The notes beneath the pieces are model-generated. The model did not search any database. It was given only the letters and a program-made list of their open reading frames with translations, and was not told where the DNA came from. This document shows positions 1,015 through 55,090 of a DNA stretch of 64,000 nt, piece after piece (within the stretch, counting starts at the first letter, position 1; each line of letters starts with the position of its first letter). The position numbers were made by a program, and so were the translations under genes. This DNA is from Chryseobacterium sp. JV274 (GTDB lineage: Bacteria > Bacteroidota > Bacteroidia > Flavobacteriales > Weeksellaceae), in assembly GCF_903969135.1 (NCBI RefSeq), contig NZ_LR824569.1, positions 3,679,001 through 3,743,000 of the forward strand, written 5' to 3'.

Positions 1015-1637
1015 ATAAATGAACTTGCAAATAAGATATACATCACTGAAACTGAGATCAGGAAATAACTGAAATAGATATCCCAAATTTCCTTGTATTT
1101 TACCAGAAGTGATAAAAATGCCATGAAGGGTAATGTTCCTATATATGATAGCGTAATTCCAAGATTAATATAAAACATTTTGTTTTTATTGAAATTGAGA
1201 ATCTCTTGTGAAGTAATTTGTTTGTAATACTCCATGATTACCAAAAGCATCAAAATAAGACAGCCAAAAGTATAGTTGAAAGCAAATACAATTTTACTTT
1301 TGGAAAAATATAATTCATTGGGAATAAATGAAAGCAGATATAAAATGGATATTATCCAAAATAGCTTGGGCTTTCCTAAAGATTTCGCAGCATATAGCCA
1401 GTAAAAAAATATAAACTGGATTGGCATTAAAAGATAGTTATAGTACTGAGCTTTGGTAAAATGAACAAAACTTCCCCACTTGCCATAAGCTTCCCCAAGA
1501 AAAATAAATACCAGATAAAACACAAAAAGTTTCCAATGTTGTTCTTTTAAACGGTTATAATGGAAAATTGCTATGACTGCAGCAAGTCCTTCAGCCCAAA
1601 GCAGACTTTTTTGTGCAAATTCCTGGAATTCTGTCAT
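993..1637 (-). CDS. Multi-pass membrane protein of unknown function
   Basis: A 214-residue protein with about six hydrophobic segments and almost no soluble region. I recognise no family motif. It ends 22 nt inside the kinase gene, which has only one membrane helix and no sensor domain. A role as membrane partner or sensor of that kinase is therefore possible, but this is inference from overlap alone. The start ATG at 1635-1637 is followed by MTEFQEFAQKSLLWAEG, an amphipathic stretch before the first helix. Confidence 0.7.
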   Translation of the reverse strand: MTEFQEFAQKSLLWAEGLAAVIAIFHYNRLKEQHWKLFVFYLVFIFLGEAYGKWGSFVHFTKAQYYNYLLMPIQFIFFYWLYAAKSLGKPKLFWIISILYLLSFIPNELYFSKSKIVFAFNYTFGCLILMLLVIMEYYKQITSQEILNFNKNKMFYINLGITLSYIGTLPFMAFLSLLVKYKEIWDIYFSYFLISVSVMYILFASSFIWGKQNS

Positions 1638-1664
1638 ACAGTTCTAAATATGATATATTTACAA

Positions 1665-2195
1665 TTAATAAGACTGACCGATAGGAGCTTTTGGCGGGAC
1701 AAGTATTCCGTTATTTTCTCCAAGACTGGTATCATCATCTTCTCCCGTGACTTTGTTGGATTTGTTGGCTAATGCAAAAGATTTTCCTTCTGCACTTTGA
1801 AAAGGATTGAAATCATAATCAATAAGTTCTCCTGTTTCATCGGCTTTTTTTAATGTTGGGACCATTACTAGAGTGTGCCTTCCTGCGTATTCTATCGGAA
1901 CAGGGTGTGATTCCATAATAGACCAGTTTTCCTGTTTCGGATAAGTAGCATAATAAAATCTGATCCCTAAATCTTCCGTAGATGTAGCTGGGTTTGCTTT
2001 GGCGGCTTCAGCTTCAATATTGGCAATAAAACTTTTTAATTTCGGAAGGTCAAACCAAATGGAATGAGCGTCATCTATTCCTAATGCGGTATTAATAGCA
2101 TTGAGATGATTTTGACGGTAATTGTCAATCAGAGCCTGGATAAGACTATTTGACATTGTTCCAGGTTGTAGCGGATTATTTGATTCTGTATTCAT
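1665..2195 (-). CDS. Conserved-looking hypothetical cytoplasmic protein
   Basis: A 176-residue soluble protein without signal peptide or membrane segment. The middle contains GIRFYYATYPKQENW and HTLVMVPT, with the look of a small alpha/beta domain, and the C-terminal 45 residues are polar and low in complexity. I do not recognise a family. It lies 27 nt upstream of the membrane-protein gene in the same orientation, so it may head the operon that ends in the two-component pair. Function unknown. Confidence 0.65.
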   Translation of the reverse strand: MNTESNNPLQPGTMSNSLIQALIDNYRQNHLNAINTALGIDDAHSIWFDLPKLKSFIANIEAEAAKANPATSTEDLGIRFYYATYPKQENWSIMESHPVPIEYAGRHTLVMVPTLKKADETGELIDYDFNPFQSAEGKSFALANKSNKVTGEDDDTSLGENNGILVPPKAPIGQSY

Positions 2196-2370
2196 AGCTT
2201 AGCAGTATTTTACGGATGAAATTCAATTAATATGCAAATCTCGGAAAAAATATGCTAGAAAATGTATTCGCGAACAGGGAATTATACTGTTATTTTTACC
2301 GTGTTTTTACGGATTGTATGTGAAGTATAATAGTTTTGGGAGAAAGAAAGGCCAGATTGATCCCATAAAA

Positions 2371-2391
2371 AAACGGAGAAGATCTCCGTTT
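2371..2391 (-). terminator. Rho-independent terminator of the 2.4-kb peptide gene
   Basis: A 9-bp perfect stem, AAACGGAGA paired with TCTCCGTTT, with a 3-nt loop. On the minus strand the stem is followed by a T-rich stretch. It sits directly after the stop of the small six-cysteine peptide gene, so that peptide is probably transcribed on its own short mRNA. Confidence 0.75.
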
Positions 2392-2394
2392 ATA

Positions 2395-2547
2395 TTAAAT
2401 ACATCCGTAATGTTTTGGATCCCTGCAGATTAACCCTGCTGTGCAACATAGGCCGATAGGGCAGTTCCAGTACTCATCACATGATATCATTGATGGAAGT
2501 ACTCCGCCTTCAATTTTCTTTAATTCGTTTCTTTTTAGCTTTTTCAT
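2395..2547 (-). CDS. Small six-cysteine secreted peptide with double-glycine leader
   Basis: A 50-residue peptide. Residues 1-15 (MKKLKRNELKKIEGG) are a charged leader ending in Gly-Gly, of the type annotated as bacteriocin-like in Chryseobacterium. The 35-residue core has six cysteines at 23, 29, 34, 35, 41 and 49, giving a C-C-CC-C-C order. Cleavage after GG by a C39-peptidase ABC transporter and export are expected from the leader; the transporter at 51-53 kb is a candidate. The ATG at 2547 is used because longer in-frame extensions add an unrelated hydrophobic stretch. There is no modification enzyme next to it. The core shares NCPIGLCC with the peptide at 23.6 kb (NPCPPGSCC). Confidence 0.8.
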   Translation of the reverse strand: MKKLKRNELKKIEGGVLPSMISCDEYWNCPIGLCCTAGLICRDPKHYGCI

Positions 2548-2689
2548 ACTGATTTTGGTATTAGTTATTGATTTGTAAGCTAAATATAGTATTATTTCAC
2601 TTAACAAGGATAAAAAAAGATGTTGAATTATTAGGCAGAAAAAAATTATTAAGAAGAATCCCAAAGACTTTTTATTTCAAAGGTGTGGA

Positions 2690-3595
2690 CTATTCCTGCA
2701 TTTTAAAGTCGCGGATGTCAATTAATTGTAGTGTTTTGTCATTGATTTTCAGTTCTATTCGGGAGGTTACCGTCCAATAGGTTACAAACCATATAGAAAC
2801 CTTGTCATCATTTTTAAATTTTTGAATGGTTTTCTGGGCATATTTTAAATAATTTGCTGTCATTTCTTTGGCCTGAATATCGCTTATCCCGTCATTATTC
2901 CTTTTGATATTATTAAGTATATATTGTTGTATTAATTGGTCACTGGCTGCAATCACCTTGGCTTTGCTGTGTTTGAAGTCTTTTTCCCAGTCAGCTTCAA
3001 ACAAAAGTTTTCCAATAACATTATATTCTTTTGAAAGTCCCGTTATCTCTTTTTCAGCTCCTTCCTGTGACGGAAGAATGAAGGAATCGGTTCTTTTCAG
3101 TTGTCCATTGCTGTTGAAGTATTGATTAGCTGTAGCAATTTTTTTATTATGAAGATATTCACTGTCTGTATCTTTTGCAAATGAATATTCTATTGTTAAA
3201 TCTTTATTATTGAAAAGAATCAGTTTTGAATCATCAGAATAGTAAAAATCATATCCTTTCCTGTTCTTGGTGAAGTAGGCATATTGCAGATAATATTGTC
3301 TGTTACTTTCTGCATTCTGAAGCACTTCTTTGGTAATTGCAGATGGATCAACTCCTTTTCTGATCCATTCCTGTCTTATGATCTCGTGCTTTATGATATT
3401 TACACTATCCAGTTTTCTTTTTGAATAATAGAATCTGCCTTCATGAACAATATCAGGGTTATGTTTTATTGCATCAAGATATTCTGTACGCATATTCTGG
3501 TAATCGGTGAGTGAAAATGGAGATGTCAGTTTATTCTGAGCGTTGACCGGAAGCGAGATCAAGAAAAATGATAAGGTGATTAATTTTATATACAT
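2690..3595 (-). CDS. Secreted protein of unknown function
   Basis: A 301-residue protein with a clear Sec signal peptide (MYIKLITLSFFLISLPVNAQ), so it is exported to the periplasm or outer membrane. The mature part is polar, rich in Lys, Tyr and Asn, and has repeated short beta-strand phrases (FYYSKRKLDS, YDFYYSDDSKL, IEYSFAKD), suggesting an all-beta domain. It has no T9SS tail and no lipobox. The ATG at 3595 was preferred over a TTG two codons upstream. It follows clpB in the same orientation but is separated from it by a terminator. I recognise no family. Confidence 0.7.
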   Translation of the reverse strand: MYIKLITLSFFLISLPVNAQNKLTSPFSLTDYQNMRTEYLDAIKHNPDIVHEGRFYYSKRKLDSVNIIKHEIIRQEWIRKGVDPSAITKEVLQNAESNRQYYLQYAYFTKNRKGYDFYYSDDSKLILFNNKDLTIEYSFAKDTDSEYLHNKKIATANQYFNSNGQLKRTDSFILPSQEGAEKEITGLSKEYNVIGKLLFEADWEKDFKHSKAKVIAASDQLIQQYILNNIKRNNDGISDIQAKEMTANYLKYAQKTIQKFKNDDKVSIWFVTYWTVTSRIELKINDKTLQLIDIRDFKMQE

Positions 3596-3632
3596 CAGCA
3601 AAAAAAATAGTTTTTAAAAGTAGAGAAAAAAA

Positions 3633-3664
3633 ATAAGTGCTGCAGATTTCTCTACAGCACTTAT
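3633..3664 (-). terminator. Terminator of clpB
   Basis: A 10-bp perfect stem, ATAAGTGCTG paired with CAGCACTTAT, with a 12-nt loop. On the minus strand the stem is followed by a run of seven T. It lies 33 nt beyond the clpB stop. Confidence 0.75.
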
Positions 3665-3696
3665 CCACAAAAATAATGTATATGAAAAAAACTATT

Positions 3697-6291
3697 TTAT
3701 TGTTCAGTAGGTCTGAAAACCAAACCGGTTTCTACAAAATAATCCAGTGTGATTCTGTCTCCGTCATTTACTTTACCGGCAAGAATCTCTTTAGACAATT
3801 TGTTCAGAACCTCCTGCTGAATCACTCTTTTCAATGGTCTTGCCCCGAAAGCAGGATCATAACCTTTATTCATCAGATAATCTACAGCATCCTGAGTGAA
3901 AGTCATAATGATGTTTCGTTTCGATAACATTTCATTAAATCCTCTCAACTGATACTGAACGATTTTTCCGATTTCTTTTTTTCTTAAAGGCTGGAACAGT
4001 ACAATTTCATCAATTCTGTTCAGGAATTCCGGACGCAGGGTTTGTTTTAAAAGATCAAAAACTTCATCTTTTGTTTTGTCCACAATTTCATCCTGATTTT
4101 CCTCTGTAAGATTCTCAAAATTCTCCTGAATAAGGTGTGAGCCTAAATTCGAGGTCATAATGATGATTGAATTTTTGAAATTTACCACACGTCCCTTATT
4201 GTCTGTCAGACGTCCGTCGTCCAAAACCTGAAGCAGGGTATTGAAAACATCCGGATGGGCTTTTTCGATCTCGTCCAAAAGCACTACAGAATAGGGTCTT
4301 CTTCTTACCGCTTCAGTCAATTGTCCGCCTTCGTCATATCCTACATATCCCGGAGGTGCTCCTACCAATCTTGAAACACTGTGACGTTCCTGATATTCAC
4401 TCATATCAATTCTCGTCATATTGTTTTCATCATCGAATAAGAATTCTGCCAATGCTTTTGCAAGCTCGGTCTTACCAACTCCGGTTGTCCCCAGGAATAA
4501 GAAAGATCCGATAGGCTTTTTATCATCGCTCAATCCGGCTCTGTTCCTTCTGATAGCATCAGCAACTGCCTGAATCGCTTCATCCTGCCCAACCACTCTG
4601 TGGTGGAGTTCAGATTCCAGGTTTAATAATTTATCTCTTTCGGATTGTAATAATTTAGTTACAGGAATACCTGTCCATTTGCCAATCACTTCAGAGATAT
4701 TTTCTGCAGTAACTTCTTCTTTGATCAGTTCATTCTGATGGTTTTGCATTTCAAGCTCCATCTTGGTAAATTCTTCCTCCTTTTCACGAAGTTTTCCGTA
4801 TTGGATTTCCGCTACTTTTGCATAATCTCCAGATCTGGAAGCTCTTTCTGCTTCATGTTTCAGAGATTCAATATCTTTTTTGATCTGGGTAAGATCTTCA
4901 CTTTTCTGTTTTTCTTTCAGCCATTTCGCATTGATCTCATTTCTCTGTTCGGAAATTTTAGCAATATCCTCTTTCAGATGATCAATTTTGGTCTGGTTGC
5001 CTTCCCTTGAAATGGCTGCCAATTCAATTTCCAGCTGCATCAGTTTCCTGTCAAGAACGTCCAGCTCTTCCGGCTTGGAATTGATTTCCATTCTCAGTTT
5101 GGCAGAAGCTTCATCAATAAGGTCGATCGCTTTATCCGGTAAGAAACGGTCTGAAATATATCTTTGAGACATTTCCACAGCAGCAATAATTGCCTCATCT
5201 TTGATTCTTACCTTATGGTGAGCTTCATATTTATCTTTAATACCACGAAGGATGGAAATAGCAGATTCAGTATCCGGTTCTTCCACCATTACTTTCTGAA
5301 AACGTCTTTCCAGCGCTTTATCTTTTTCAAAATACTTTTGGTACTCATTCAAAGTAGTTGCTCCAATTGCTCTCAATTCACCTCTTGCCAAAGCAGGTTT
5401 TAATATGTTGGCAGCATCCATCGCTCCTTCACCACCGCCGGCACCCACCAATGTGTGGATTTCGTCGATGAAAAGTATAATCTGTCCATCAGCTTTGGTG
5501 ACTTCATTCACAACGGATTTCAGACGTTCCTCAAACTCACCTTTGTATTTGGCTCCGGCGATCAAAGCTCCCATATCCAATGAGAATAATGTTTTATCCA
5601 TCAGATTTTCAGGAACGTCACCGTTGATAATTCTGTGGGCAATTCCTTCGGCAATGGCTGTTTTACCTACACCCGGCTCCCCGATAAGGATTGGGTTGTT
5701 TTTTGTTCTTCTGGAAAGGATCTGTAAAACCCTTCTGATTTCTTCATCACGCCCGATTACAGGGTCCAGTTTGCCTTCTGCCGCTAACTCGTTGAAGTTT
5801 TTAGCATATTTATTTAAGGACTGGTATGTTTCTTCTGAGCTAGCAGAAGTTGCTTTACTTCCTTTTCTTAATTCTTTGATAGCACCTTCCAGCAGATTTT
5901 TGGTTACACCCATATCTTTCAGCATCTTGGATACTTCAGAGCTGGTCTCCAAAAGAGATAGCCATAAATGTTCAATCGTTACATATTCGTCACCCATTTT
6001 CTTAGCGATATTGGGTGCATCCAGCAATACTTTGTTGGCAGATTGTGAAAGGTAAATGTTTCCTCCCTGTACTTTTGGAAGTTTTTCTAAATTTTCACGG
6101 TTACGCTCTCTTACTAAATTGGCATCTGCTTCAGATTTTTTAAGTAAGAAAGGCGATATATTTTCATCTACCTGGAAGATTCCTTCAAGGAGGTGTTGAG
6201 GTTCGATACTTTGGTTGCCCAATTCCATAGCAATCTGTTGTGCTGCCTGGATGGCTTCCTGTGATTTTACTGTATATTGGTTCAAGTTCAT
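3697..6291 (-). CDS. clpB: ATP-dependent disaggregase ClpB
   Basis: An 864-residue Hsp100 chaperone that, with DnaK, extracts and refolds proteins from aggregates in the cytoplasm. All domains are present: a Clp N-domain (about 1-145), a first AAA+ module with Walker A GEPGVGKTA near residue 205 and Walker B LFIDEIHTLVGAG, a long Glu/Lys-rich coiled-coil middle domain (about 405-525), and a second AAA+ module with GTTGVGKTE near 605, GYVGYDEGG and a D2-small domain. Length matches the family. The coiled-coil insert separates it from ClpA and ClpC. It is a single gene with its own terminator. No CIRCE-type operator was seen upstream, so heat regulation cannot be read here. Confidence 0.98.
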   Translation of the reverse strand: MNLNQYTVKSQEAIQAAQQIAMELGNQSIEPQHLLEGIFQVDENISPFLLKKSEADANLVRERNRENLEKLPKVQGGNIYLSQSANKVLLDAPNIAKKMGDEYVTIEHLWLSLLETSSEVSKMLKDMGVTKNLLEGAIKELRKGSKATSASSEETYQSLNKYAKNFNELAAEGKLDPVIGRDEEIRRVLQILSRRTKNNPILIGEPGVGKTAIAEGIAHRIINGDVPENLMDKTLFSLDMGALIAGAKYKGEFEERLKSVVNEVTKADGQIILFIDEIHTLVGAGGGEGAMDAANILKPALARGELRAIGATTLNEYQKYFEKDKALERRFQKVMVEEPDTESAISILRGIKDKYEAHHKVRIKDEAIIAAVEMSQRYISDRFLPDKAIDLIDEASAKLRMEINSKPEELDVLDRKLMQLEIELAAISREGNQTKIDHLKEDIAKISEQRNEINAKWLKEKQKSEDLTQIKKDIESLKHEAERASRSGDYAKVAEIQYGKLREKEEEFTKMELEMQNHQNELIKEEVTAENISEVIGKWTGIPVTKLLQSERDKLLNLESELHHRVVGQDEAIQAVADAIRRNRAGLSDDKKPIGSFLFLGTTGVGKTELAKALAEFLFDDENNMTRIDMSEYQERHSVSRLVGAPPGYVGYDEGGQLTEAVRRRPYSVVLLDEIEKAHPDVFNTLLQVLDDGRLTDNKGRVVNFKNSIIIMTSNLGSHLIQENFENLTEENQDEIVDKTKDEVFDLLKQTLRPEFLNRIDEIVLFQPLRKKEIGKIVQYQLRGFNEMLSKRNIIMTFTQDAVDYLMNKGYDPAFGARPLKRVIQQEVLNKLSKEILAGKVNDGDRITLDYFVETGLVFRPTEQ

Positions 6292-6661
6292 ATTTTATAT
6301 ATTTTTGGTAATGATTTGTTCAAAGTTTAGTTTTTAAAAAACATCAAGAAACTAAATTTTAAGGCTCAGTTTCTTAATGTCATCAATTATTTAATCATTT
6401 ATTCGATGACTATATCGCAAAAACTGTTCAATTATTAAATTTACAAAAAAATAGGACAAATTTTCCGGATATTGTATTTTTAACGGAAAATTAACTTGAC
6501 AAAATTTCCGATTTCGTAATTATTTCTTTGAAATTCATGAACAAATAGTCAGAATCAGGTAAAATAGCCAATCAATGAAACTGAAGTTGAAGAGCCTTGT
6601 GCTTTTTATGATCAAAAAAGGAGCAGTTTAAATCAGAATAATTACTTTTGCATTTTACCAG
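6292..6661. other. 370-bp divergent intergenic region between clpB and the paa regulator
   Basis: AT-rich region holding the promoters of two divergent genes. On the minus strand, CTAAACTTTGAAC close upstream of clpB resembles a -7 element. On the plus strand, TACTTTTG at 6643-6650 matches the Bacteroidota -7 consensus and ends only 11 nt before the regulator start codon, which would give a very short leader. I see no coding potential, RNA gene or strong palindrome in the rest. Confidence 0.5.
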
Positions 6662-7240
6662 ATGGAACTAAAAGAAAAACAGAGAAAAATATTAGACGTA
6701 GCAGTAGAACTTTTCAAAGAGAAAGGGTATATGGGAAGCTCAGTAAGAGACCTGGCTACGAAACTCAATATCAAAGCAGCATCGCTGTACGCACATATCC
6801 GTTCAAAGGAAGAAATTCTGGAATGGATTTGTTTTGGCATTGCTCAGGAGTTTTTTGATGAGCTTCAGAAAGTAAAAAATACAGATATTACTCCAAGAGA
6901 AAAACTAAATCTGTTACTGGATAAGCATCTGTCTGTTGTTCTTAAAAACCGTGATGTCACTCATATTTATTCTAATGAATGGAGACATCTGGAAGAAAAG
7001 CTTCCCGAGTTTGTAGAGTTAAGAAAAAATTATCAGCAGGAAGTTGAAAAACTCATTTCTGAGATCTACAGTGCAGAAAACTGGGAACTGAAATCACCAT
7101 CATTTACAACAAGATTTATTCTTCATACTTTAAACAATTCTTATTTCTGGTTCAAAAGAAGCAGTGATTCTACTGATGAAATCACTGAAGAAATCAGGGA
7201 GAAAATCCTTTTTGGATTACTTGGAAACCAGAAGATATAG
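6662..7240 (+). CDS. TetR-family regulator, probable paa repressor
   Basis: A 192-residue one-component regulator. Residues about 8-55 form a TetR N-terminal helix-turn-helix (ILDVAVELFKEKGYMGSSVR, then DLATKLNIKAASLYAHIRSK). The remainder is the helical ligand-binding domain, whose ligand in paa-linked relatives is an aromatic acyl-CoA; that assignment is inference here. It is followed by paaK in the same orientation after 172 nt. A perfect 14-bp palindrome at the predicted paaK transcription start is the best candidate operator. Expected role: repression of the paa genes until phenylacetyl-CoA accumulates. Confidence 0.85.
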   Translation: MELKEKQRKILDVAVELFKEKGYMGSSVRDLATKLNIKAASLYAHIRSKEEILEWICFGIAQEFFDELQKVKNTDITPREKLNLLLDKHLSVVLKNRDVTHIYSNEWRHLEEKLPEFVELRKNYQQEVEKLISEIYSAENWELKSPSFTTRFILHTLNNSYFWFKRSSDSTDEITEEIREKILFGLLGNQKI

Positions 7241-7356
7241 TCTTTCGCAAGTAGAAATCATTAGTACATTTTACATTATACTTTTTACAAGAAAAGAAAT
7301 CCCGCGTTACTTTTCTTATTTAGAATCATTCAAAATATGACAAAAGTCATAAAAAT

Positions 7357-7387
7357 TTTGCCAGCTTATAAAATCTTTTTAAATTTA
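7357..7387 (+). promoter_or_regulatory. Promoter of the paa operon
   Basis: TTTG at 7357-7360 and TAAATTTA at 7380-7387 are separated by exactly 19 nt, the spacing of the Bacteroidota -33/-7 promoter. The last base of the -7 element differs from the consensus G. Transcription should begin near 7393, inside the palindrome described separately. Confidence 0.65.
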
Positions 7388-7390
7388 CAC

Positions 7391-7404
7391 CTAACAAATG
7401 TTAG
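7391..7404. promoter_or_regulatory. 14-bp palindrome, candidate TetR/PaaR operator
   Basis: CTAACAAATGTTAG is a perfect inverted repeat (CTAACA, AA, TGTTAG). It overlaps the predicted transcription start and ends 8 nt before the paaK start codon. A repressor bound here would block initiation. The adjacent TetR-family gene is the natural candidate for binding it; binding itself is inference. I found no second exact copy in the window. Confidence 0.6.
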
Positions 7405-7412
7405 TTAGTTTT

Positions 7413-8729
7413 ATGGATTTTTCAGTTGAATATCTGGAGCTGGGTCAGTTGAGACAGCTTCAATCCGACCGGTTGATGAGTTTGATCAGCTATTTGGGGG
7501 AGAAGTCGGAATTTTATAAAAAGAAATTTGATGAATTACAAATATCTCCACAGGATATAAGGTCGATTGAAGATATCAGGAAACTTCCTATTACTTACAA
7601 ACAGGATTTAAGAGATAACTACCCATTTGGTTTATTTACCGTTCCTAAAAATGAGCTTCAGCGTATTCATTGCTCAAGCGGAACAACAGGAAAGCCAACG
7701 GTGGTAGGATATACAAAAGAAGATGTGGACCTTTTCAGTGAAGTGGTGGCCAGATCTTTACATGCTGCAGGAGCGAAACCGGGAATGCAGCTGCACAACG
7801 CTTATGGGTATGGAATTTTCACAGGAGGATTAGGGCTTCATTACGGAGCAGAGAAACTGGGGATGAGTGTTCTTCCTATTTCGGGAGGAATGACGGCGAG
7901 ACAGGTAGATCTGATTGTAGATTTTAAGCCGGAAGTGATTTGCTGCTCTCCATCATATGCTTTGACTATTGCAGATGAATTTGCCAGAAGAGGAATTTCT
8001 GCAGATGAAATCAGTCTTCAATATGCTGTGTTAGGCTCAGAACCATGGACGGAAATTATCAGAGGTCATATTGAAGAAAAATTAGGGGTTCATGCAACCA
8101 ATATCTATGGGTTGAGCGAAATTATCGGCCCGGGAGTTTCAATGGAGGATTTCGAGGAAAAAGGAGGTTCTTATATCTGGGAAGATCATTTTTACCCTGA
8201 AATTTTAGATCCGGTTACCAAACAGCCGGTTTCTTTTGGAGAAGAAGGGGTGTTGGTGATTACAACGTTAACGAAAAAAGCAATGCCGCTTCTTCGTTAC
8301 TGGACCAATGATATCACAAGCCTTTATTATGATGAAAATGCTAAAAGAACGATGGTGAAAATGAAACCCATTGTCGGAAGAGCAGATGATATGCTGATTG
8401 TAAGAGGTGTAAATGTCTATCCAAGCCAGATTGAAGAGGCTTTCTCTTATGTGGAAGGAGTAGTGCCTAATTATTATCTAACGCCTATCGAAAAGGAACA
8501 TATGTGTATCGCTTTGGATATTGATGTTGAAATAGACGATGAGCTGGTAAAGACGCAGAAAATAGAAGCAAATACCGATGATTATTTTAATTTTGTCGGG
8601 AACTTTGGAAAAAACATAGAAAACGAAATAAAAAAACGGGTAGGAATCACAACGAAAGTGAAAGTTCATGCCCAGGACAGCCTGCCAAAGTGCGAAGGTG
8701 GAAAAATTAATAGAATACTTAAAAAATAA
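7413..8729 (+). CDS. paaK: Phenylacetate-CoA ligase
   Basis: A 438-residue cytoplasmic AMP-forming ligase that activates phenylacetate to phenylacetyl-CoA, the first step of the pathway. The phosphate-binding loop SSGTTGKPT is at residues 88-96. AYGYGIFTGGLGLHYGAEKLG and NIYGLSEIIGPGVS are typical of the PaaK branch, and the C-terminal RADDMLIVRGVNVYP motif belongs to the AMP-binding C domain. The ATG at 7413 was chosen because an in-frame ATG at 7398 lies inside the operator palindrome. The stop overlaps the paaE start by one base. Length and motifs are normal for the family. Confidence 0.96.
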   Translation: MDFSVEYLELGQLRQLQSDRLMSLISYLGEKSEFYKKKFDELQISPQDIRSIEDIRKLPITYKQDLRDNYPFGLFTVPKNELQRIHCSSGTTGKPTVVGYTKEDVDLFSEVVARSLHAAGAKPGMQLHNAYGYGIFTGGLGLHYGAEKLGMSVLPISGGMTARQVDLIVDFKPEVICCSPSYALTIADEFARRGISADEISLQYAVLGSEPWTEIIRGHIEEKLGVHATNIYGLSEIIGPGVSMEDFEEKGGSYIWEDHFYPEILDPVTKQPVSFGEEGVLVITTLTKKAMPLLRYWTNDITSLYYDENAKRTMVKMKPIVGRADDMLIVRGVNVYPSQIEEAFSYVEGVVPNYYLTPIEKEHMCIALDIDVEIDDELVKTQKIEANTDDYFNFVGNFGKNIENEIKKRVGITTKVKVHAQDSLPKCEGGKINRILKK

Positions 8730-23615: not shown

Positions 23616-23777
23616 ATGAAAAACTTAAAAAAACTTTCAAGACATGAGTTGAGATCTCTTAAAGGATCCGGGCCAAACTGGTCTTGTGTCCTTAATCCTT
23701 GTCCTCCCGGAAGCTGCTGCCTTCCTGGAAGATGGCCTGATATTGCCAGAGCATGTTATATATGTGCCGATTCTTAG
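23616..23777 (+). CDS. Small six-cysteine secreted peptide, leader ending KGSG
   Basis: A 53-residue peptide too short for ordinary gene finding. The leader MKNLKKLSRHELRSLKGSG is of the same type as the peptide at 50.9 kb (MKNLKKLSRKELTFVSGG), but the Gly-Gly site is replaced by Gly-Ser-Gly. The core has six cysteines at 24, 29, 34, 35, 47 and 50, in C-C-CC-C-C order, with NPCPPGSCCLPG matching the layout of the peptide at 2.4 kb. It has its own terminator and no neighbouring maturation gene. Likely exported by a C39-type ABC transporter in trans; activity unknown. Confidence 0.75.
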   Translation: MKNLKKLSRHELRSLKGSGPNWSCVLNPCPPGSCCLPGRWPDIARACYICADS

Positions 23778-47493: not shown

Positions 47494-47715
47494 ATGAAAA
47501 CTATTAATAAACTAGTATTAGCTCTTTTTCTTTTTGCTATAACTTTAGCAAATGCAGCCCCACCACAACCACAACCAGCTCCAACAGGAAGTGGAAATGG
47601 AGGAAATGGTACCGGAGCACCAGCGCCTATTGATATGTACGTATATATACTTGGTATTGTAGCAATTGTATTTATTGTTTACTTTACAAAAAAGTACAAA
47701 AGCGTAAAAGCATAA
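47494..47715 (+). CDS. Small exported Pro-rich protein with C-terminal membrane helix
   Basis: A 73-residue protein: signal peptide (MKTINKLVLALFLFAITLANA), then a Pro/Gln/Gly linker (PPQPQPAPTGSGNGGNGTG), one membrane helix (IDMYVYILGIVAIVFIVYF) and a short basic tail. This architecture is common next to secreted proteins in Chryseobacterium; its role is unknown. It is coupled to the T9SS protein and followed by a terminator. Confidence 0.75.
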   Translation: MKTINKLVLALFLFAITLANAAPPQPQPAPTGSGNGGNGTGAPAPIDMYVYILGIVAIVFIVYFTKKYKSVKA

Positions 47716-47735
47716 AATTTTATTAAAATAATATT

Positions 47736-47765
47736 AAACTCTCTGATTAATCAGAGAGTTTTTTT
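47736..47765 (+). terminator. Terminator after the T9SS/small-protein pair
   Basis: A 26-bp perfect palindrome, AAACTCTCTGATT paired with AATCAGAGAGTTT, followed by a run of T. It lies 20 nt after the stop codon and ends before the next gene. Confidence 0.85.
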
Positions 47766-47776
47766 ATTTTTACTCT

Positions 47777-49069
47777 ATGAAAAAGATTTATACGCTATCT
47801 GCGGTTTTGGCTGCATTTGCTCTGCAGGCTCAATTTACAGTTACCATTCAAACTCCGGCAGACTTTAAAGATCAGGACGCTATTCTATATACATTAAACG
47901 GTTCGAAAGATATTATTGTTACCAAAGAACAAAGTAAGAATAGTACATGGACTTTTAAATACCCAAGCAGTTATATGGGAATGATGAAAGTCTATTTCCC
48001 GGGCTCTAATAATACAGTAAGCTTTATTTCAGAAAATAAAAATGTCAATGTTAAACTGGATATCCAGAATAATAAAGTTAAAGATGTTACCTATCTAGAT
48101 GAAGCGAACAACCTGATGAGTAAGCAGCAGGAAGGCTCACAAAAGAAAGAGCTTATTTTGCCGGCTTTAGCACAGATTAAAGAATATTATAAAGATAATA
48201 CAGACTTTGGAAAAGCACTGAAAACAGAGATCGACAGACTTTCCGGTACTTCCAGCTCTATTGATGCCGCTCAACATCCATTTATTACCTATTATAACAC
48301 GAATTACAGTAAATTTATTTCCCCTTCACAAGATGCCACCAAAAAAGTAGATCAGGAGGAAATAATCAACTTTCTGGACAAGTCAAATGATATGCTGGAG
48401 ACTTCCTCATTACTAAGACCAGTGTTAGTATCTTATCTGAACTCCGGAGGAAATACCAATGTTGCTGCTTCTGTTGATAAACTCTTAGACCGATTAAAAG
48501 TGGAAACTCCAAGAGGGCAGACTGTTTTATCAGAACTGATCGATATTTTTGATGTGTATGAGATGGATGAGTACAAGAGCAAATATTTGTCACTTGCCAA
48601 AAATCTTAAGTGTACCATCACTGACAGACTTGCATCTACACTGAAATCGAATGCCAACATTGAAATGGGAGCTGCTTTCCCTAACTATAAGTTCCAGGCA
48701 CCAGTAAATACTACTGCGAAGTCATTATATGATATAAAGGCTGATAAAAAGGTTATTGTGTTTTGGTCATCCACATGCTCACACTGCGAAAGTGAACTTC
48801 CGAAACTTCTGGAAAAATATAATGATCTGAAATCAAAAAATATTCAGGTTGTAGGGTTTTCTTTAGATGTTGACAAAAATTCTTATACTAAAAAGATTGC
48901 TGCATTTCCTTGGGTGAATGACTCCGAATTGAGAGGGTGGAACAGCAGTTACACGGATATGTACAATATTCATGCAACTCCGACGTATTTTATTTTAGAT
49001 GCTAACAATAAGATTATCAACAAACCAGATCATGTTGGTGATGTTTTGGAATATTTTAAGTTAAAATAA
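47777..49069 (+). CDS. TlpA-like thioredoxin-family lipidless exported protein
   Basis: A 430-residue exported protein. A signal peptide (to about residue 19) is followed by about 290 residues of Bacteroidota-type N-terminal region (DUF4369-like: FTVTIQTPADFKDQDAILYT). A C-terminal thioredoxin domain has the redox motif CSHC in FWSSTCSHCESELPKLL and the cis-Pro loop in HATPTYFILDANN. It would reduce disulfides in the periplasm, perhaps during secretion of cysteine-containing proteins. It is the last gene before the tRNA. Confidence 0.85.
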   Translation: MKKIYTLSAVLAAFALQAQFTVTIQTPADFKDQDAILYTLNGSKDIIVTKEQSKNSTWTFKYPSSYMGMMKVYFPGSNNTVSFISENKNVNVKLDIQNNKVKDVTYLDEANNLMSKQQEGSQKKELILPALAQIKEYYKDNTDFGKALKTEIDRLSGTSSSIDAAQHPFITYYNTNYSKFISPSQDATKKVDQEEIINFLDKSNDMLETSSLLRPVLVSYLNSGGNTNVAASVDKLLDRLKVETPRGQTVLSELIDIFDVYEMDEYKSKYLSLAKNLKCTITDRLASTLKSNANIEMGAAFPNYKFQAPVNTTAKSLYDIKADKKVIVFWSSTCSHCESELPKLLEKYNDLKSKNIQVVGFSLDVDKNSYTKKIAAFPWVNDSELRGWNSSYTDMYNIHATPTYFILDANNKIINKPDHVGDVLEYFKLK

Positions 49070-49595: not shown

Positions 49596-50894
49596 TCAGA
49601 CCTGATATCCAAGCAGCTTTCTGATTTGATAGAAGAATCTTTCAATCAATCGAAGATCTTGTGTTACGATCTCTGCACTGCCCCTAAGTTCTTTATCGAA
49701 TGTAAGCGTTTTGTTGTAACTTGTTTTTAATCCTTTTGGCAAAATAACATCTACATAATAATTTCCTTTATCATCAGGAATAAGAGAGATATTCTGTACT
49801 TTTCCTTCGATGATACCATATTCCTGGAATCGATAGTTATCTAGTTTAATCAATACTTTTTCGCCCGGAATGATCTTTCCTGAGTTTACGGTAGGAACAG
49901 ACATTCTGCCTACCAACTGCTCTTTATTTTTAGGAAGAATAGAAAGAATAGGTTCACCCGATTTTACAAACTGATTTTCACCAAAAAACTGCTGGAAACT
50001 GGCAACACCATCTGTAGATGATATAACAAGATAATTCAGTTCCCATTGTTTCAATGATTTTCTCAGTTGCTCAAGAAGCTGTAAAGTTTGTGAAGAGTAT
50101 GTAATTCTGTCTTTTTCTGTGTTAATGGCCGTTCCGCTTTTAGTTTTATTAAGATTGGAAACCCCTTCATCCATTTGTGATATGGAGATTTTAAGATTTT
50201 CAAGATTTTGCTGGGCCTGAAGATATTTGATCTTTTCATTTTCAAGTTCCATAGCAGAAATAACTCCTTGATTGAAAAGTTCCTGAGACCTGTTGAAGTT
50301 TTTCTTAGTCAGATCATATTTTATTGATTCCAGGTTTTTCTGTTGTTTTAAGGTAGCAATTCGTATGCGGTATTCAGAAATACTCTGATTGGCTGCCAGG
50401 TTTTCCGGAGCATAAGGCTGTAATCTTGTAAAAAGGGCTTCATCCTGAAATGCTTTTGCAAAACTATTGTATTCACCCTGTAATTCTCCCAACTTGAACC
50501 TTGAAGCCTGAGCAAGAGGGAAGCTATATAAATTATCAGGAGTAATGGAATCTACCAGTTTTTTCAACTCTAAAATATCCTTATAGTTGGCTGCTGACTG
50601 CATTACCATCAGAACATCATTCTTTTTAACTTGCTGATGGTCTTTTATGAATATTTTTTCAATTTTGGAACTTGTCCTTGCTTCAATCTTCTCTGGAGGA
50701 TTCTGCGAAGTTACAATAATAGGAGCCGGTACAAATTCCGGATATTTTATGATGTAACTCATCAAGAGAATCAGCAGGAGAATAATAAATATAACAGTAT
50801 TTCCCCAGCGTATCATCCAATGCGGGGGCTGGGTAAGAATATCCTGTACGCTTTCTGAGCGGAGTTCAATATTGTCTAAAACGTCTTCTTTCAT
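49596..50894 (-). CDS. HlyD-family periplasmic adaptor of the peptide exporter
   Basis: A 432-residue membrane fusion protein. A short cytoplasmic N-terminus (to about 27) is followed by one membrane helix (VIFIILLLILLMSYII). A biotinyl-lipoyl-like beta region (IEARTSSKIEKIFIKDHQQV), a long coiled coil with heptads (about 150-260), a second lipoyl half (YLVISSTDGVASFQQFFG) and a C-terminal beta barrel then follow. It links the ABC transporter at 51-53 kb to an outer membrane TolC-like channel, which is not in the window. It ends the operon. Confidence 0.92.
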   Translation of the reverse strand: MKEDVLDNIELRSESVQDILTQPPHWMIRWGNTVIFIILLLILLMSYIIKYPEFVPAPIIVTSQNPPEKIEARTSSKIEKIFIKDHQQVKKNDVLMVMQSAANYKDILELKKLVDSITPDNLYSFPLAQASRFKLGELQGEYNSFAKAFQDEALFTRLQPYAPENLAANQSISEYRIRIATLKQQKNLESIKYDLTKKNFNRSQELFNQGVISAMELENEKIKYLQAQQNLENLKISISQMDEGVSNLNKTKSGTAINTEKDRITYSSQTLQLLEQLRKSLKQWELNYLVISSTDGVASFQQFFGENQFVKSGEPILSILPKNKEQLVGRMSVPTVNSGKIIPGEKVLIKLDNYRFQEYGIIEGKVQNISLIPDDKGNYYVDVILPKGLKTSYNKTLTFDKELRGSAEIVTQDLRLIERFFYQIRKLLGYQV

Positions 50895-50939
50895 TTTTCT
50901 AAGATAAAATTTCCCCCAATATTTCAGGGGGAATATAAT

Positions 50940-51134
50940 TTAACCAAATGGGCAATTCCCGTCATACCACGATGGTGGTGAAGTATCAGCATCCGGTGGA
51001 CATGCAATGTGATGGAGATGGCATGGCATCCAGCTGCCAAGACACCAGGAACCACAGCAATTGTTGTCCGGAATAACTACACCTCCGCTGACAAATGTCA
51101 GTTCTTTTCTCGAAAGTTTTTTTAGATTTTTCAT
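50940..51134 (-). CDS. Double-glycine leader peptide with six core cysteines
   Basis: A 64-residue peptide located between the C39 ABC transporter and the HlyD-like gene, the classical place of a substrate. The leader MKNLKKLSRKELTFVSGG (residues 1-18) ends in Gly-Gly. The 46-residue core has six Cys (26, 27, 31, 38, 45, 61), three His and many Pro/Trp, and no lanthipeptide-type Ser/Thr clustering. No modification enzyme is in the locus, so disulfide formation by the neighbouring VKOR-DsbA protein is the most plausible maturation. Biological activity (toxin, signal or other) cannot be told from sequence. Confidence 0.85.
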   Translation of the reverse strand: MKNLKKLSRKELTFVSGGVVIPDNNCCGSWCLGSWMPCHLHHIACPPDADTSPPSWYDGNCPFG

Positions 51135-51194
51135 GATTAAAATTAGTTTTTGTTTTTCCTACTCTATAAGCTTTTCGGTTCCGCTATATTTTGG

Positions 51195-53390
51195 CTAGCT
51201 TCCTAATTCAAGCTGGTTTCTTACAAGTCTGTAATATTCTCCCCTCAAATCTACAAGATCTGCATGGCTGCCTTCTTCCACAACTTTCCCCTGATCCAGT
51301 ACAATGATTTTATCCGCATGTCTTACCGTGGAAAGTCTGTGGGCAATAACCACTGCTGTTTTCCCTTTGAAAAACTGCTCAAGGTTTTCCATAATTACTT
51401 TCTCATTATTGGCATCCAATGCTGATGTTGCTTCATCAAACAAGATATATTCAGGAGATTTGTAAACAGCTCTTGCAATGAAGAGTCTCTGTTTCTGACC
51501 GCCGCTGACCCCAACACCTTCATTTCCTATTTTCGTATTGTAACTTAACGGAAGGCTTTCAATGAATTCCTTGATATTGGCTATTTCTACAGCACGTCTC
51601 AGTTTTTGTTTGTCAATATGATCTTCACCTACAGCAATGTTATTGGCAATAGTATCGTTGAATACATAGCCTTCCTGCATTACCACTCCGCAATGATCTC
51701 TCCAGTATCTTGGGGAGATATTCTTCATATTGGTGCTTCCGATTCTGATTTCACCCTGGTCAGGATCATAAAACTTCATTAACAGCTTCAACAGGGTTGT
51801 TTTTCCACTTCCACTGGCTCCCACAATAGCTGTAGTCTGCTGATAAGGGATCGTAAGACTTAAATTTTCAAAAACCGGAACATCAGAACCAATATAACGG
51901 AATGACATATCTTTGATCTCGATGTCTTTCTTTGGAACATCTGTAACATACTGCTCATTTTTATCCTCCTCATCATCTTTATCATGAATTTCCCCTAATC
52001 TTTCAAGGGAAATCTTAGCATCCTGAGTCTGCTTGATAAAGTCGATAAGCTGAAGAAGAGGGCTGTTCAACTGTCCGATAATATATTGTACAGAAAGCAT
52101 CATCCCTAAAGTAAGATTTCCGCTCAAAACCAGCTTTGCAGAAAGGAAACTTACCAGTATATCTTTCATCTGGTTGATAAAATTTCCTCCAACAGACTGC
52201 CATTGTTCTAATGAAAGTGATTTTATTCTGATTTTAAACAGTTTTACCTGAAGAAATTCCCAGTCCCATCGTTTCTGTTTTTCTGCATTATGCATTTTAA
52301 TCTCCTGCATACCGTTGATAAGCTCAATCACTTTACTTTGTTCCTGAGAGACCTGAGAGAACCTTTTGTAATCAAGTTCCTTTCTCTTTTTCAGGAAGAA
52401 ACTGATCCAGCCAATATACAATATCGCTCCAACAAGGTAAACAATGAATAATCTGTAATCATAAAACAGTAAAACAATACTGAAGATGATAAGGTTTACC
52501 AGTGAGAAGAGAGTGTTTAACGATGAACTTGTAAGCAGCTGCTCGATTCTGTGGTGGTCATTTATTCGCTGCATGATATCTCCGGTCATTCTCGTATCAA
52601 AGAAACTTATTGGAAGTCTCATAAGCTTGATAAAGAAATCGGAGATGATGGAAATATTAATTCTCGCCGAAAGATGGAGAAGAATCCAGCTTCGTATGGT
52701 TTCAATTCCCATTCTTCCAAGAAATAGCATAATCTGTGCAAGTAAAACGACATAGATAAAATTAATATCCTGGTTCTGGATTCCAACGTCTACAATACTT
52801 TGGGTAAGAAACGGGAATATCAGGGATAATAAACTTCCTCCCAGAAGCCCTATGGCCAGCTGGATTACAAGTCTTTTATATTTAAGGAGATACTTGGAAA
52901 GAAACGTAAAGCTAGCTTTACTTTCTTCAGCATCAAATTCTGTCTGAAAAAATGCTGGTGTTGTTTCAAGAATCAGAACAATTCCTTCTTCTGTATTTTC
53001 GTTTGCATTTTCTCCGATCCAGGATTTGATAAACTCTTCTCTTGTATACGTAATAAGTCCATAACTGGGATCTGAAATATATACTTTATTATTTTTGTCA
53101 ATCTTGTATACAACCACAAAATGGTTTTTATTCCAGTGTGCTATACAAGGAAAAGAAACCTCTTCTGTAAGGGTATTGAAATCTATCTGGACTCCCATAG
53201 ACCGGAATCCGAGGTTTTCTGCCGCATCGCTTAGCCCAAGAAGGCTGCTTCCTTCACGTGTTGTTTCGGAAAGGCTGCGAATCTGCTGCAGAGATATACT
53301 TTTACCATAATACTTACTTACGATCCTGAGACATGTAGGACCGCAGTCTTTGGTATCTGGTTGCTTATAAAAAGGAAACTTTTTTTTCAA
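51195..53390 (-). CDS. Peptidase C39-containing ABC transporter (bacteriocin-type exporter)
   Basis: A 731-residue fused exporter that cleaves double-glycine leaders and exports the core across the inner membrane. The N-terminal C39 peptidase has the catalytic triad and oxyanion residues: Gln10, Cys16 (KDCGPTCLRI), His90 and Asp107 (ISDPSYG). A six-helix membrane domain (about 165-445) is followed by the ATPase domain with Walker A VGASGSGKTTL, signature SGGQKQR and Walker B YILFDEATSALD. All catalytic residues are intact. It is the second gene of the locus; its substrate is the peptide just downstream and possibly the orphan peptides at 2.4 and 23.6 kb. Confidence 0.96.
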   Translation of the reverse strand: MKKKFPFYKQPDTKDCGPTCLRIVSKYYGKSISLQQIRSLSETTREGSSLLGLSDAAENLGFRSMGVQIDFNTLTEEVSFPCIAHWNKNHFVVVYKIDKNNKVYISDPSYGLITYTREEFIKSWIGENANENTEEGIVLILETTPAFFQTEFDAEESKASFTFLSKYLLKYKRLVIQLAIGLLGGSLLSLIFPFLTQSIVDVGIQNQDINFIYVVLLAQIMLFLGRMGIETIRSWILLHLSARINISIISDFFIKLMRLPISFFDTRMTGDIMQRINDHHRIEQLLTSSSLNTLFSLVNLIIFSIVLLFYDYRLFIVYLVGAILYIGWISFFLKKRKELDYKRFSQVSQEQSKVIELINGMQEIKMHNAEKQKRWDWEFLQVKLFKIRIKSLSLEQWQSVGGNFINQMKDILVSFLSAKLVLSGNLTLGMMLSVQYIIGQLNSPLLQLIDFIKQTQDAKISLERLGEIHDKDDEEDKNEQYVTDVPKKDIEIKDMSFRYIGSDVPVFENLSLTIPYQQTTAIVGASGSGKTTLLKLLMKFYDPDQGEIRIGSTNMKNISPRYWRDHCGVVMQEGYVFNDTIANNIAVGEDHIDKQKLRRAVEIANIKEFIESLPLSYNTKIGNEGVGVSGGQKQRLFIARAVYKSPEYILFDEATSALDANNEKVIMENLEQFFKGKTAVVIAHRLSTVRHADKIIVLDQGKVVEEGSHADLVDLRGEYYRLVRNQLELGS

Positions 53391-53578
53391 AACTACTACT
53401 CATTATAAAATGCCGTCAGCGGGTGACGACATTTACTTTAATTCAATTATAATTCAATGAAATGGTAAACCGGAAATAGTCCCATTTGTCACTGTTTTTC
53501 TGCTCTTTTACATCTTATCAGATGTTATTTTTGTTTTTCCTAAGATAGTGAAATTTTCAGATGAATGATATTTATTTA

Positions 53579-55090
53579 CTAAATCTCATCATCTTCTATT
53601 AATTCATCAATAAAGAATAAAATATCTTCACGATCATACTTGTCAGGGAATTGATATCCGTTGATGATAAAAATCGGGGTGAAGTTTAATCCTGCGTTAC
53701 TGTTTTCGGTAGACATCTCTACTAGTGGATTCAGGTTTTCCGATGTTACATTTCCTCCGGAAAGAGCATTGATTTTACTTTCGTCCTTAGTTTCAAACCA
53801 TTCTTCTACAGCATGTAGGAACTCTTTTTCAGGCTTGTTATGGTAGATATGAGTTAAGTCTGAAATAAGCTGTGTGTATTTTTCAGGAGCTCTTTCGGGA
53901 CTGTAATTGAATCTCATCTGTAAAGAGATCGTATCAGGGTATTTTTCCAAAAGGCCTTCTGCCAATTTATGAGCATCCTTACAGAAACCGCAATATGGAT
54001 TGGATACAATAGAAATACGAAGTTTCGCATCTCTTTTTCCGACAGCAAAAGTTTCGGTATTCTGGAATTCGATTTTTGGATTCTGCTCCATCTGGTTTTT
54101 GAACAGCTCATAATTTCTTTTGAATCTAAGGTTTTTCGCATTAGATTTTTGTAGCGCTTCTTTTTGTTCAAGAAGAGTATTGAAATAAATAACGGCAGAG
54201 AATACCAGAGCCCATAAAATGACCGTCAATAAAAGTGTTCCCACACTGAAAGACATATTCTCGAAAAATAAACTGCTTACTACTATTTGTGCTGCAAGTA
54301 TTGAAATAATCAAAAGACATACTCTACAAAACGTTTTTTCTACAAAAGCCTGAATGTATAGAGAATACCCTATTGCAAGGATAGAAACAAAGGTGAATCC
54401 TTTTACAATATAAGCTGTAGCCGGTAAAAATAATCCCAGCACGGTAAGTCCTGCAAAATAGATCAGGGAAAAGTCTGCAAATTTTAACCCTAAAATACTG
54501 GTCTTATCCTGCTTAATAATTTTATCACATGAGTTGACTGTCTGGCTGGCAGCAGCACCTCCACCACATATACTTCCGATTACGGTAGATGTATTCCCGA
54601 ATTTCTGATTGAAGATTTCAAGTGAAATATATACTCCAGCCAGAGAGAGAAGATTGAATAAGGCTTCATAAATGGTTTGGCTTATAAATGAATAAGCGAG
54701 AACAGCTGCAAAAATTAAATAAAGTACCGGCTTGAAATTGAAGGCCAGTTTATTTTCTGCATTTTCGGTCTTTTCAAATAACAGTACAAAATCAGTTGAT
54801 TTGGTATAAAGTTCTTCTTTACCGAAGGTTTTTGCTTTTTCTGAGTATACTGAATAATTGCTTCCTGACTTTTTTACAAGAGAAAATGAATTTTCAACAA
54901 TAGCAATAAATTCTTCCGGAAGTTCGTCCCAATATTCTTTGTCTAGTTCATAAGCATCATTTTTCACCCCCATAAAGTTAAGCGTGTCACTGAAAGCCAA
55001 TGCAGATGGATAATTGGGATGTGAATTGAACTGGAAAATGAATTCCTGTTTATCGAGTTTTAGGTGGTTAATTAGTTTGTCAAAAATCAT
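53579..55090 (-). CDS. VKOR-DsbA fusion with inactive C39-like domain
   Basis: A 503-residue disulfide-forming membrane protein. Residues about 10-105 (SHPNYPSALAFSDTLNFMGV) have the outline of a C39 peptidase fold but lack the catalytic Cys and His. Residues about 118-305 form a vitamin K epoxide reductase domain with five helices and the four redox cysteines Cys175, Cys188, Cys255 and Cys258 (CRVC). Residues about 340-500 are a DsbA/thioredoxin domain with Cys367-Gly-Phe-Cys370 and cis-Pro in LNFTPIFII. It would oxidise cysteines of the exported peptide. It is the first gene of the locus. Confidence 0.92.
   Translation of the reverse strand: MIFDKLINHLKLDKQEFIFQFNSHPNYPSALAFSDTLNFMGVKNDAYELDKEYWDELPEEFIAIVENSFSLVKKSGSNYSVYSEKAKTFGKEELYTKSTDFVLLFEKTENAENKLAFNFKPVLYLIFAAVLAYSFISQTIYEALFNLLSLAGVYISLEIFNQKFGNTSTVIGSICGGGAAASQTVNSCDKIIKQDKTSILGLKFADFSLIYFAGLTVLGLFLPATAYIVKGFTFVSILAIGYSLYIQAFVEKTFCRVCLLIISILAAQIVVSSLFFENMSFSVGTLLLTVILWALVFSAVIYFNTLLEQKEALQKSNAKNLRFKRNYELFKNQMEQNPKIEFQNTETFAVGKRDAKLRISIVSNPYCGFCKDAHKLAEGLLEKYPDTISLQMRFNYSPERAPEKYTQLISDLTHIYHNKPEKEFLHAVEEWFETKDESKINALSGGNVTSENLNPLVEMSTENSNAGLNFTPIFIINGYQFPDKYDREDILFFIDELIEDDEI

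Follow-up and report, generated by a model that had tools for sequence, protein, structure and literature searches.

A putatively inverted VKOR-DsbA oxidase and a single C39 exporter as a candidate hub for dispersed cysteine-rich peptides of Chryseobacterium

Genes of the hub and their conservation

Our analysis concerns a four-gene locus, here called the hub, on the minus strand of a 64,000-nucleotide stretch (the window) from the closed 5.23 Mb genome of Chryseobacterium sp. JV274. It encodes a membrane disulfide oxidase that joins a VKOR core to a DsbA-like domain, an ABC exporter with a C39 leader peptidase, a small double-glycine (GG) leader peptide and an HlyD-type adaptor. The reading we favour, to which we would give a probability of roughly 0.55, is that a leader-guided oxidase bonds many precursors, which one C39 exporter then cleaves and secretes. 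An earlier note, made from the letters of the window, had drawn attention to these genes, and open reading frames (ORFs) together with domain matches confirm that all four are there:

49596-50894, minus strand: HlyD-type membrane fusion adaptor, 432 aa (HlyD_3, 43.3 bits; cut-off 22.2)
50940-51134, minus strand: GG-leader peptide, 64 aa (leader of 18 aa ending in GG, 51081-51134; core of 46 aa with six Cys, 50943-51080)
51195-53390, minus strand: C39 peptidase-containing ABC exporter, 731 aa, TTG start (Peptidase_C39 125.3, ABC_membrane 112.6 and ABC_tran 105.7 bits)
53013-53378, minus strand: intact C39 leader-peptidase domain of the exporter (Pfam match to residues 5-126; Cys, His and Asp motifs)
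53579-55090, minus strand: three-domain membrane disulfide oxidase (C39 fold lacking the catalytic Cys, VKOR core, DsbA/ScsC-like domain), 503 aa
54770-55090, minus strand: C39-peptidase-fold domain without cysteine, residues 1-107 of the oxidase, proposed to bind leaders
54179-54736, minus strand: six membrane helices of the oxidase, an extra helix (119-137) and then the VKOR core (structure model, VKOR alignment, charge test)
53582-54082, minus strand: DsbA/ScsC-like thioredoxin-fold domain with CGFC (Thioredoxin_4 match)

As the note had stated, the exporter's C39 domain is intact, its Cys, His and Asp motifs being retained in alignment, the small ORF is a Gly-Gly peptide of 64 residues with six core cysteines, and the adaptor is of HlyD type, although it scores only 96.5 bits against TIGR01843 (HlyD of type I secretion), below that model's cut-off of 208.65. 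The proposed VKOR-DsbA fusion is indeed encoded, with VKOR (PF07884, 36.0 bits; cut-off 27.5) and Thioredoxin_4 (38.3 bits; cut-off 23.2) both over their thresholds and with catalytic residues C175, C188, C255 and C258 that are invariant in an alignment of relatives; plain it is not, however, as a C39-fold domain without catalytic cysteine forms its N-terminus. Nor did the statement that modification genes are missing need amending: the window's ORF list holds no further sizeable gene among the four and no LanB/LanC among the ORFs surrounding the hub, and the neighbourhoods (~1.5 kb) of the dispersed peptides described below show no recurring modification gene.

We take the window peptide for a true gene because, among 80 named related loci (nearly all from Chryseobacterium), 23 carry a member of its family (CCGSWC) and because the differences among 22 distinct equal-length copies fall mostly at third codon positions (485, as against 213 and 152 at the other two, which are inflated by some copies shifted by one residue). 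Its leader reaches 21.1 bits with the NCBIfam model leader_Chryseo (NF047798), slightly below the cut-off of 23.5. The gene order VKOR fusion, C39-ABC, HlyD, which the earlier note had proposed to follow through related genomes, is complete in 75 of the 80 named loci, HlyD standing last, and the exporters at related hubs are full-length ABC ORFs of 85-99% identity. With a profile built from 33 leaders of the source genome, at least one leader peptide was found inside the hub in 60 of the 75 complete loci, between VKOR and ABC in 44 and between ABC and HlyD in 43. The expectation that related strains keep the peptide gene between transporter and adaptor is thus borne out in part: CCGSWC recurs as said, and some GG peptide fills that slot in those 43 of the 75 complete loci. 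Altogether, 125 hub peptides were counted (100 with six Cys, 24 with four and one, probably a false match, with none), and not one of 116 distinct cores has an odd number.

One leader type at many chromosomal places

When the whole genome was searched with leader_Chryseo, 57 matches appeared at a loose E-value, 35 of them above cut-off (one of these places passes only together with its neighbours in frame); at the same E-value, 14 control genomes gave weak matches in eight and matches above cut-off in none. Removal of one 420-aa enzyme leaves 56 short ORFs, which map to 38 places if genes no more than 5 kb apart are joined. Their leader is mostly canonical, with L at -12 and -7, I/V at -4 and G at -2 and -1. 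Core cysteines are even in number (2, 4, 6 or 8) in 54 of the 56 peptides and in 43 of 45 after sequence clustering, and Cys makes up 13.6% of core residues versus 0.75% in window proteins. Since the model spans 18 leader positions only, the cores were not selected for cysteine; some even bias does arise without special cause, as ordinary window proteins with 2-9 Cys divide into 22 even and 11 odd (n = 33). One of the two odd peptides (2884434) belongs to a five-Cys family found in other species too. The other, ORF 586559, has five Cys, no ATG start and a six-Cys relative at 4855142 (by eye), and looks like a decaying copy.

Taken with the hub's enzyme content, we hold it to be very likely that the peptides carry disulfides. 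Even counts would equally suit sites at which paired cysteines bind metal or clusters, and a LanB/LanC-type cluster exists in the genome that might be cited in support of thioethers. But the hub encodes a disulfide-forming enzyme, and the four lanthipeptide-type precursors have another leader type and 9, 7, 8 and 9 Cys, mostly odd counts. Moreover, a search for recurring immunity or modification genes beside the peptides (ORFs of at least 80 aa in 46 own-genome stretches, many of them overlapping and most ~3 kb long) returned, besides one peptide, only generic families at two or three places each. Metal sites or thioethers in place of disulfides therefore strike us as quite improbable.

A cystine-knot-like order (C-C-CC-C-C) is seen in 9 of 29 six-Cys cores, whereas 2000 shuffles averaged 2.4 such cores and two of them reached 9; the count of 9 includes related, non-independent copies, and the order was read from sequence alone. 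Upstream of the peptide genes, TAnnTTTG occurs in 19 of 54 regions, while 200 single-base shuffles averaged 7.2 and never exceeded 14; this is suggestive of a promoter common to the dispersed peptides.

The genome as a whole has two C39 domains, one in the hub exporter and one in the lanthipeptide-type cluster. That cluster lies near 3.346 Mb (709-8561 of stretch L052) and holds its own exporter, the four precursors above and ORFs that we presume to be LanB/LanC-like. Judged from these sequence patterns, one hub is quite probably common to dozens of unlinked peptides, so that the earlier note's picture of a system that cleaves, exports and disulfide-bonds peptides holds in outline, though not as a one-peptide locus, for 56 leader peptides appear to use the hub. 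Alternatively, the dispersed peptides may be non-substrates that go through the lanthipeptide exporter or another route, or are decaying, with the hub exporting in-hub peptides only. Their lack of linkage to the hub and the state of copy 586559 are in line with that, but the leader type is identical inside and outside the hub and the dispersed peptides keep even Cys counts.

Surveying 98 genomes of the genus speaks to the same point. Leaders occur in 91 (at least 48 in the richest genome, counts being partly lower bounds in larger genomes, where at most 81 candidates were scored) and the VKOR fusion in 94; as to the fusion calls, the assemblies of G038 and G063 interrupt its reading frame, and G053 has a divergent copy only. 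All 91 leader-bearing genomes have the fusion, and all four without it (G011, G057, G060, G079) are without leader matches (Fisher P 1e-5, kinship uncorrected); the fusion is present with zero leader matches in G029, G053 and G090. A single C39 domain is found in 25 of the 98 genomes, 23 of which combine it with the fusion and with a median of at least 17 leaders, and in 22 of these 23 it lies within ~6 kb of the VKOR gene (by eye), the two being on separate contigs in G018. With one C39 domain serving genomes so rich in leaders, we think it unlikely that the dispersed peptides bypass the hub.

As side observations, VKOR, ABC and HlyD genes stand together in L113 (from G029) and L114 (from G090), genomes in which the leader model finds no match. 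In the source genome, GG peptides also lie in tandem, four to five per array, at 4493507-4494512, 2174601-2175616 and 3093090-3093841, those of the first array with the knottin-like order C-C-CC-C-C. Two dispersed peptides fall within the window itself:

23616-23777, plus strand: GG-leader peptide ORF with six core Cys and the same leader family (leader 32.4 bits)
2395-2547, minus strand: GG-leader peptide ORF whose six core Cys follow the pattern C-C-CC-C-C (leader below cut-off at 18.8 bits; start assigned to the ATG preceding the leader)

The C39-fold domain and the predicted side of oxidation

According to fold search, the N-terminal ~115 residues of the VKOR-DsbA protein adopt the C39 leader-peptidase fold, matching the C39 domains of PCAT1, ComA and a leader-bound GG protease (6mpz) as well as the C39-like domain of HlyB (3zua), which we take likewise to be without the catalytic Cys. 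Residues 1-115 of the window protein contain zero cysteines and hence no catalytic one. The C39 likeness comes from the fold search only: comparing profiles of this domain and of the C39 domain in the exporter gave no match, and a PDB sequence search with the oxidase domain gave no C39 match. While the fold is common to all of these proteins, the window domain is fused to a disulfide oxidase and not to a transporter. Going by the modelled fold, it seems rather likely that the domain binds GG leaders. The oxidase is also the one VKOR protein over cut-off in the genome, where a profile search found no DsbB over cut-off.

Hydropathy gives the protein six helices, which a full-length model (pLDDT 74.9, pTM 0.42) places at 119-137, 140-163, 204-219, 226-250, 256-273 and from 283 onward. 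Helix 119-137 is regarded as extra because the VKOR fold alignment begins only at residue 137-139. If all six helices span, one side of the membrane carries the C39-like domain together with the VKOR active site and the DsbA-like domain. Lysine plus arginine counts beside the helices average 10 on the active-site side versus 1.2 on the other, and all 79 named hubs in this first test agree in sign (a motif search had recovered the VKOR sequence from 79 of the 80 loci). If the N-terminal flank and first helix are omitted, the averages become 7.2 versus 1.2, and the sign holds for each of the 80 proteins under three hydropathy cut-offs and for 79 of them under the strictest one. In six short VKORs of four helices (L228-L233), by contrast, the counts are 0 versus 4-6, the pattern expected for a periplasmic active site, and in the uncurated whole sample, 6 of 25 short-tailed VKOR proteins deviate from this normal pattern. 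In a curated sample from the phylum, charges are reversed in 24 of 27 fusions (two ties, one opposite) and normal in 13 of 14 conventional VKORs; these loci were picked by ORF length and judgement (26 long, 14 others), so that the sample is non-random and kinship uncorrected. Among the picks, the long L260 turned out conventional and L289, from the others, a fusion. Left out of both classes were two VKOR fusions whose ORF is without the N-terminal domain, namely L289 and L297 (first row).

It is because of the reversed charge pattern that we place the active sites in the cytosol. This side would fit a leader-reading domain because leaders exist solely before cleavage. Type I export with HlyD is thought to pass the substrate straight outside, skipping the periplasm, and a cytosolic oxidation would fit such an exporter for that reason. 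As predicted from these sequence features, then, oxidation on the cytosolic side has slightly better than even chances in our estimate, and the oxidation step of the earlier note's reading may have to be moved, with disulfide formation preceding export.

In the competing scenario of conventional topology, VKOR-DsbA would be periplasmic and oxidise during or after export, the C39-like domain serving for periplasmic docking or, if the first helix is non-spanning, staying cytosolic. In bacteria, DsbA usually works in the periplasm and is re-oxidised by DsbB or VKOR (PMC11208910), the DsbA-like domain resembles periplasmic ScsC, and bacteroidetocin loci require a thiol oxidoreductase and yield products that shift upon reduction (PMC6671954). 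Yet charges are reversed in 80 of 80 hubs whereas 13 of 14 conventional VKORs show the expected pattern, and with six spans an N-terminal domain of 115 residues would have to cross the membrane without a signal peptide. Periplasmic oxidation would, moreover, meet peptides whose leader should already be removed, and what is known of type I export as a family has it bypass the periplasm. We see conventional topology as possible but the less probable arrangement, at about one chance in three.

Our preferred reading of leader-guided cytosolic oxidation would run as follows. Short precursors with one GG leader type would be made from ~38 chromosomal places, where the sequence shows their genes to lie, and in the cytosol the N-terminal C39 fold without catalytic Cys would bind the leader and so hand the core over to a DsbA-like domain that faces this side too and would mostly form two to four disulfides. 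The VKOR core would re-oxidise the DsbA-like domain with quinone, a chemistry expected from the families involved and on a side predicted from charges. Family membership likewise suggests that the oxidised precursor would pass to the C39-ABC exporter, be cut after GG, and that HlyD with an outer-membrane channel encoded elsewhere would allow the core to be secreted past the periplasm. The hub and the disulfides are well supported, while the binding of leaders and the cytosolic orientation are predicted. The entire combination of an inverted VKOR-DsbA with a dead leader-reading C39 domain, cytosolic disulfides, dozens of unlinked knottin-like and other precursors, relatives across Bacteroidota and a single C39 transporter is a more tentative proposition, whose chances we would put somewhat under even. 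By analogy, an antibacterial or bacteriocin role is our likeliest guess for the products.

If true, this would provide a route to disulfide-bonded peptides in Gram-negative bacteria, whose type I exporters presumably bypass the periplasm. It would be a natural, substrate-selective system for cytosolic disulfides with possible use in peptide production. A dead protease domain that reads substrates for another enzyme would show domain re-use in a clean form, and a cytosolic oxidase of this kind would be unusual. The reading also gives a testable route for peptides named merely 'bacteriocin-like protein', with at least 2200 leader matches in the 98 genus genomes.

A second C39-like VKOR-DsbA fusion is found near 3.944 Mb (L050, 6147-8737), 28% identical to the hub protein and under the VKOR cut-off. 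It adjoins its own six-Cys GG peptide and has a charge pattern of 16 versus 3, like the hub protein. L050 also holds a secreted-looking protein of 274 aa that contains GLPGLI; similar-sized proteins lie beside GG peptides in other genera (L204-L214).

Relatives in Bacteroidota and described systems

Beyond the genus, leaders and fusion occur together in 31 of 148 family genomes, leaders only in two (one weak match each), the fusion only in seven (two being short pieces) and neither in 108. VKOR, ABC and HlyD ORFs stand together in 10 of 17 regions around VKOR matches in other genera, the remaining seven being cut, broken or without one of the three genes, and gene order is variable outside the genus (ABC, peptides, HlyD, VKOR in L209 and L210). 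In the phylum sample, a C39-ABC lies within 6 kb of 18 of 27 fusions as opposed to 0 of 14 conventional VKORs (P 3e-5), and both loci left out of the classes also have one at that distance. Searched with no Cys requirement, 10 of 25 fusion loci yielded 18 GG ORFs, 16 of them with even counts (4, 6 or 8), and the 14 conventional loci yielded none.

The nearest described system that we found is the bacteroidetocin locus, which combines a C39-ABC and a thiol oxidoreductase with a transmembrane protein and a GG peptide of four Cys; activity is weaker when the oxidoreductase is deleted, and reduction shifts the products on a gel (PMC6671954). Like it, the hub is a small Bacteroidetes locus that unites a GG peptide of paired cysteines with a thiol oxidoreductase and a C39-ABC, and three features of bacteroidetocin loci are present, namely a GG-leader peptide with a core of 35-50 aa and at least two Cys (46 aa and six here), the C39-ABC and the oxidoreductase, the last a likeness judged by description. 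In the accessible text, bacteroidetocin loci have four genes, including a five-TM protein and one peptide, and HlyD goes unnamed (PMC6671954). The hub, by contrast, has a dead-C39-VKOR-DsbA fusion, HlyD, many peptide families and dozens of dispersed precursors, and the ORF list shows no separate five-TM protein gene of the bacteroidetocin type among its four genes, the VKOR protein itself having six helices. We do not class the hub with the bacteroidetocin loci, given that it has no separate TM protein and that the comparison covered gene content.

Comparison with the VKOR-thioredoxin fusion of Synechococcus (PDB 4nv5, 4nv2, 3kp9) shows that its alignment starts from its residue 17, so that it has no preceding C39-fold domain or extra helix; by eye, one of its loops carries K/R in the alignment, opposite a single K of the window protein. 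We know of no link between this fusion and peptide export. The VKOR of the archaeon Aeropyrum pernix reportedly, as the title of a 2017 study by Hibender et al. has it, adopts a topology that promotes disulfides in two compartments. As for the peptides, their leader type is already modelled by NCBIfam as NF047798 (leader_Chryseo, 'bacteriocin-like protein'), covering the 18 leader positions only, and some database entries are so named. Among the papers listed by literature searches with limited coverage of subscription titles, we found none that connects VKOR and C39 with bacteriocins in Bacteroidetes or that gives these Chryseobacterium peptides a name, the accessible parts of PMC6671954, PMC12453122, PMC10352776, PMC8939145 and PMC8546649 included.

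Two further observations concern the surroundings of the hub. In G004, G022, G032, G047, G056, G068, G085 and G228, a second, divergent VKOR fusion lies ~12-23 kb from the hub and is split at a similar place into VKOR and thioredoxin ORFs. In the window, the opposite strand adjoining the hub (47494-49069) encodes a TlpA-like thioredoxin protein and a small protein that is rich in proline and has a hydrophobic stretch towards its C-terminus.

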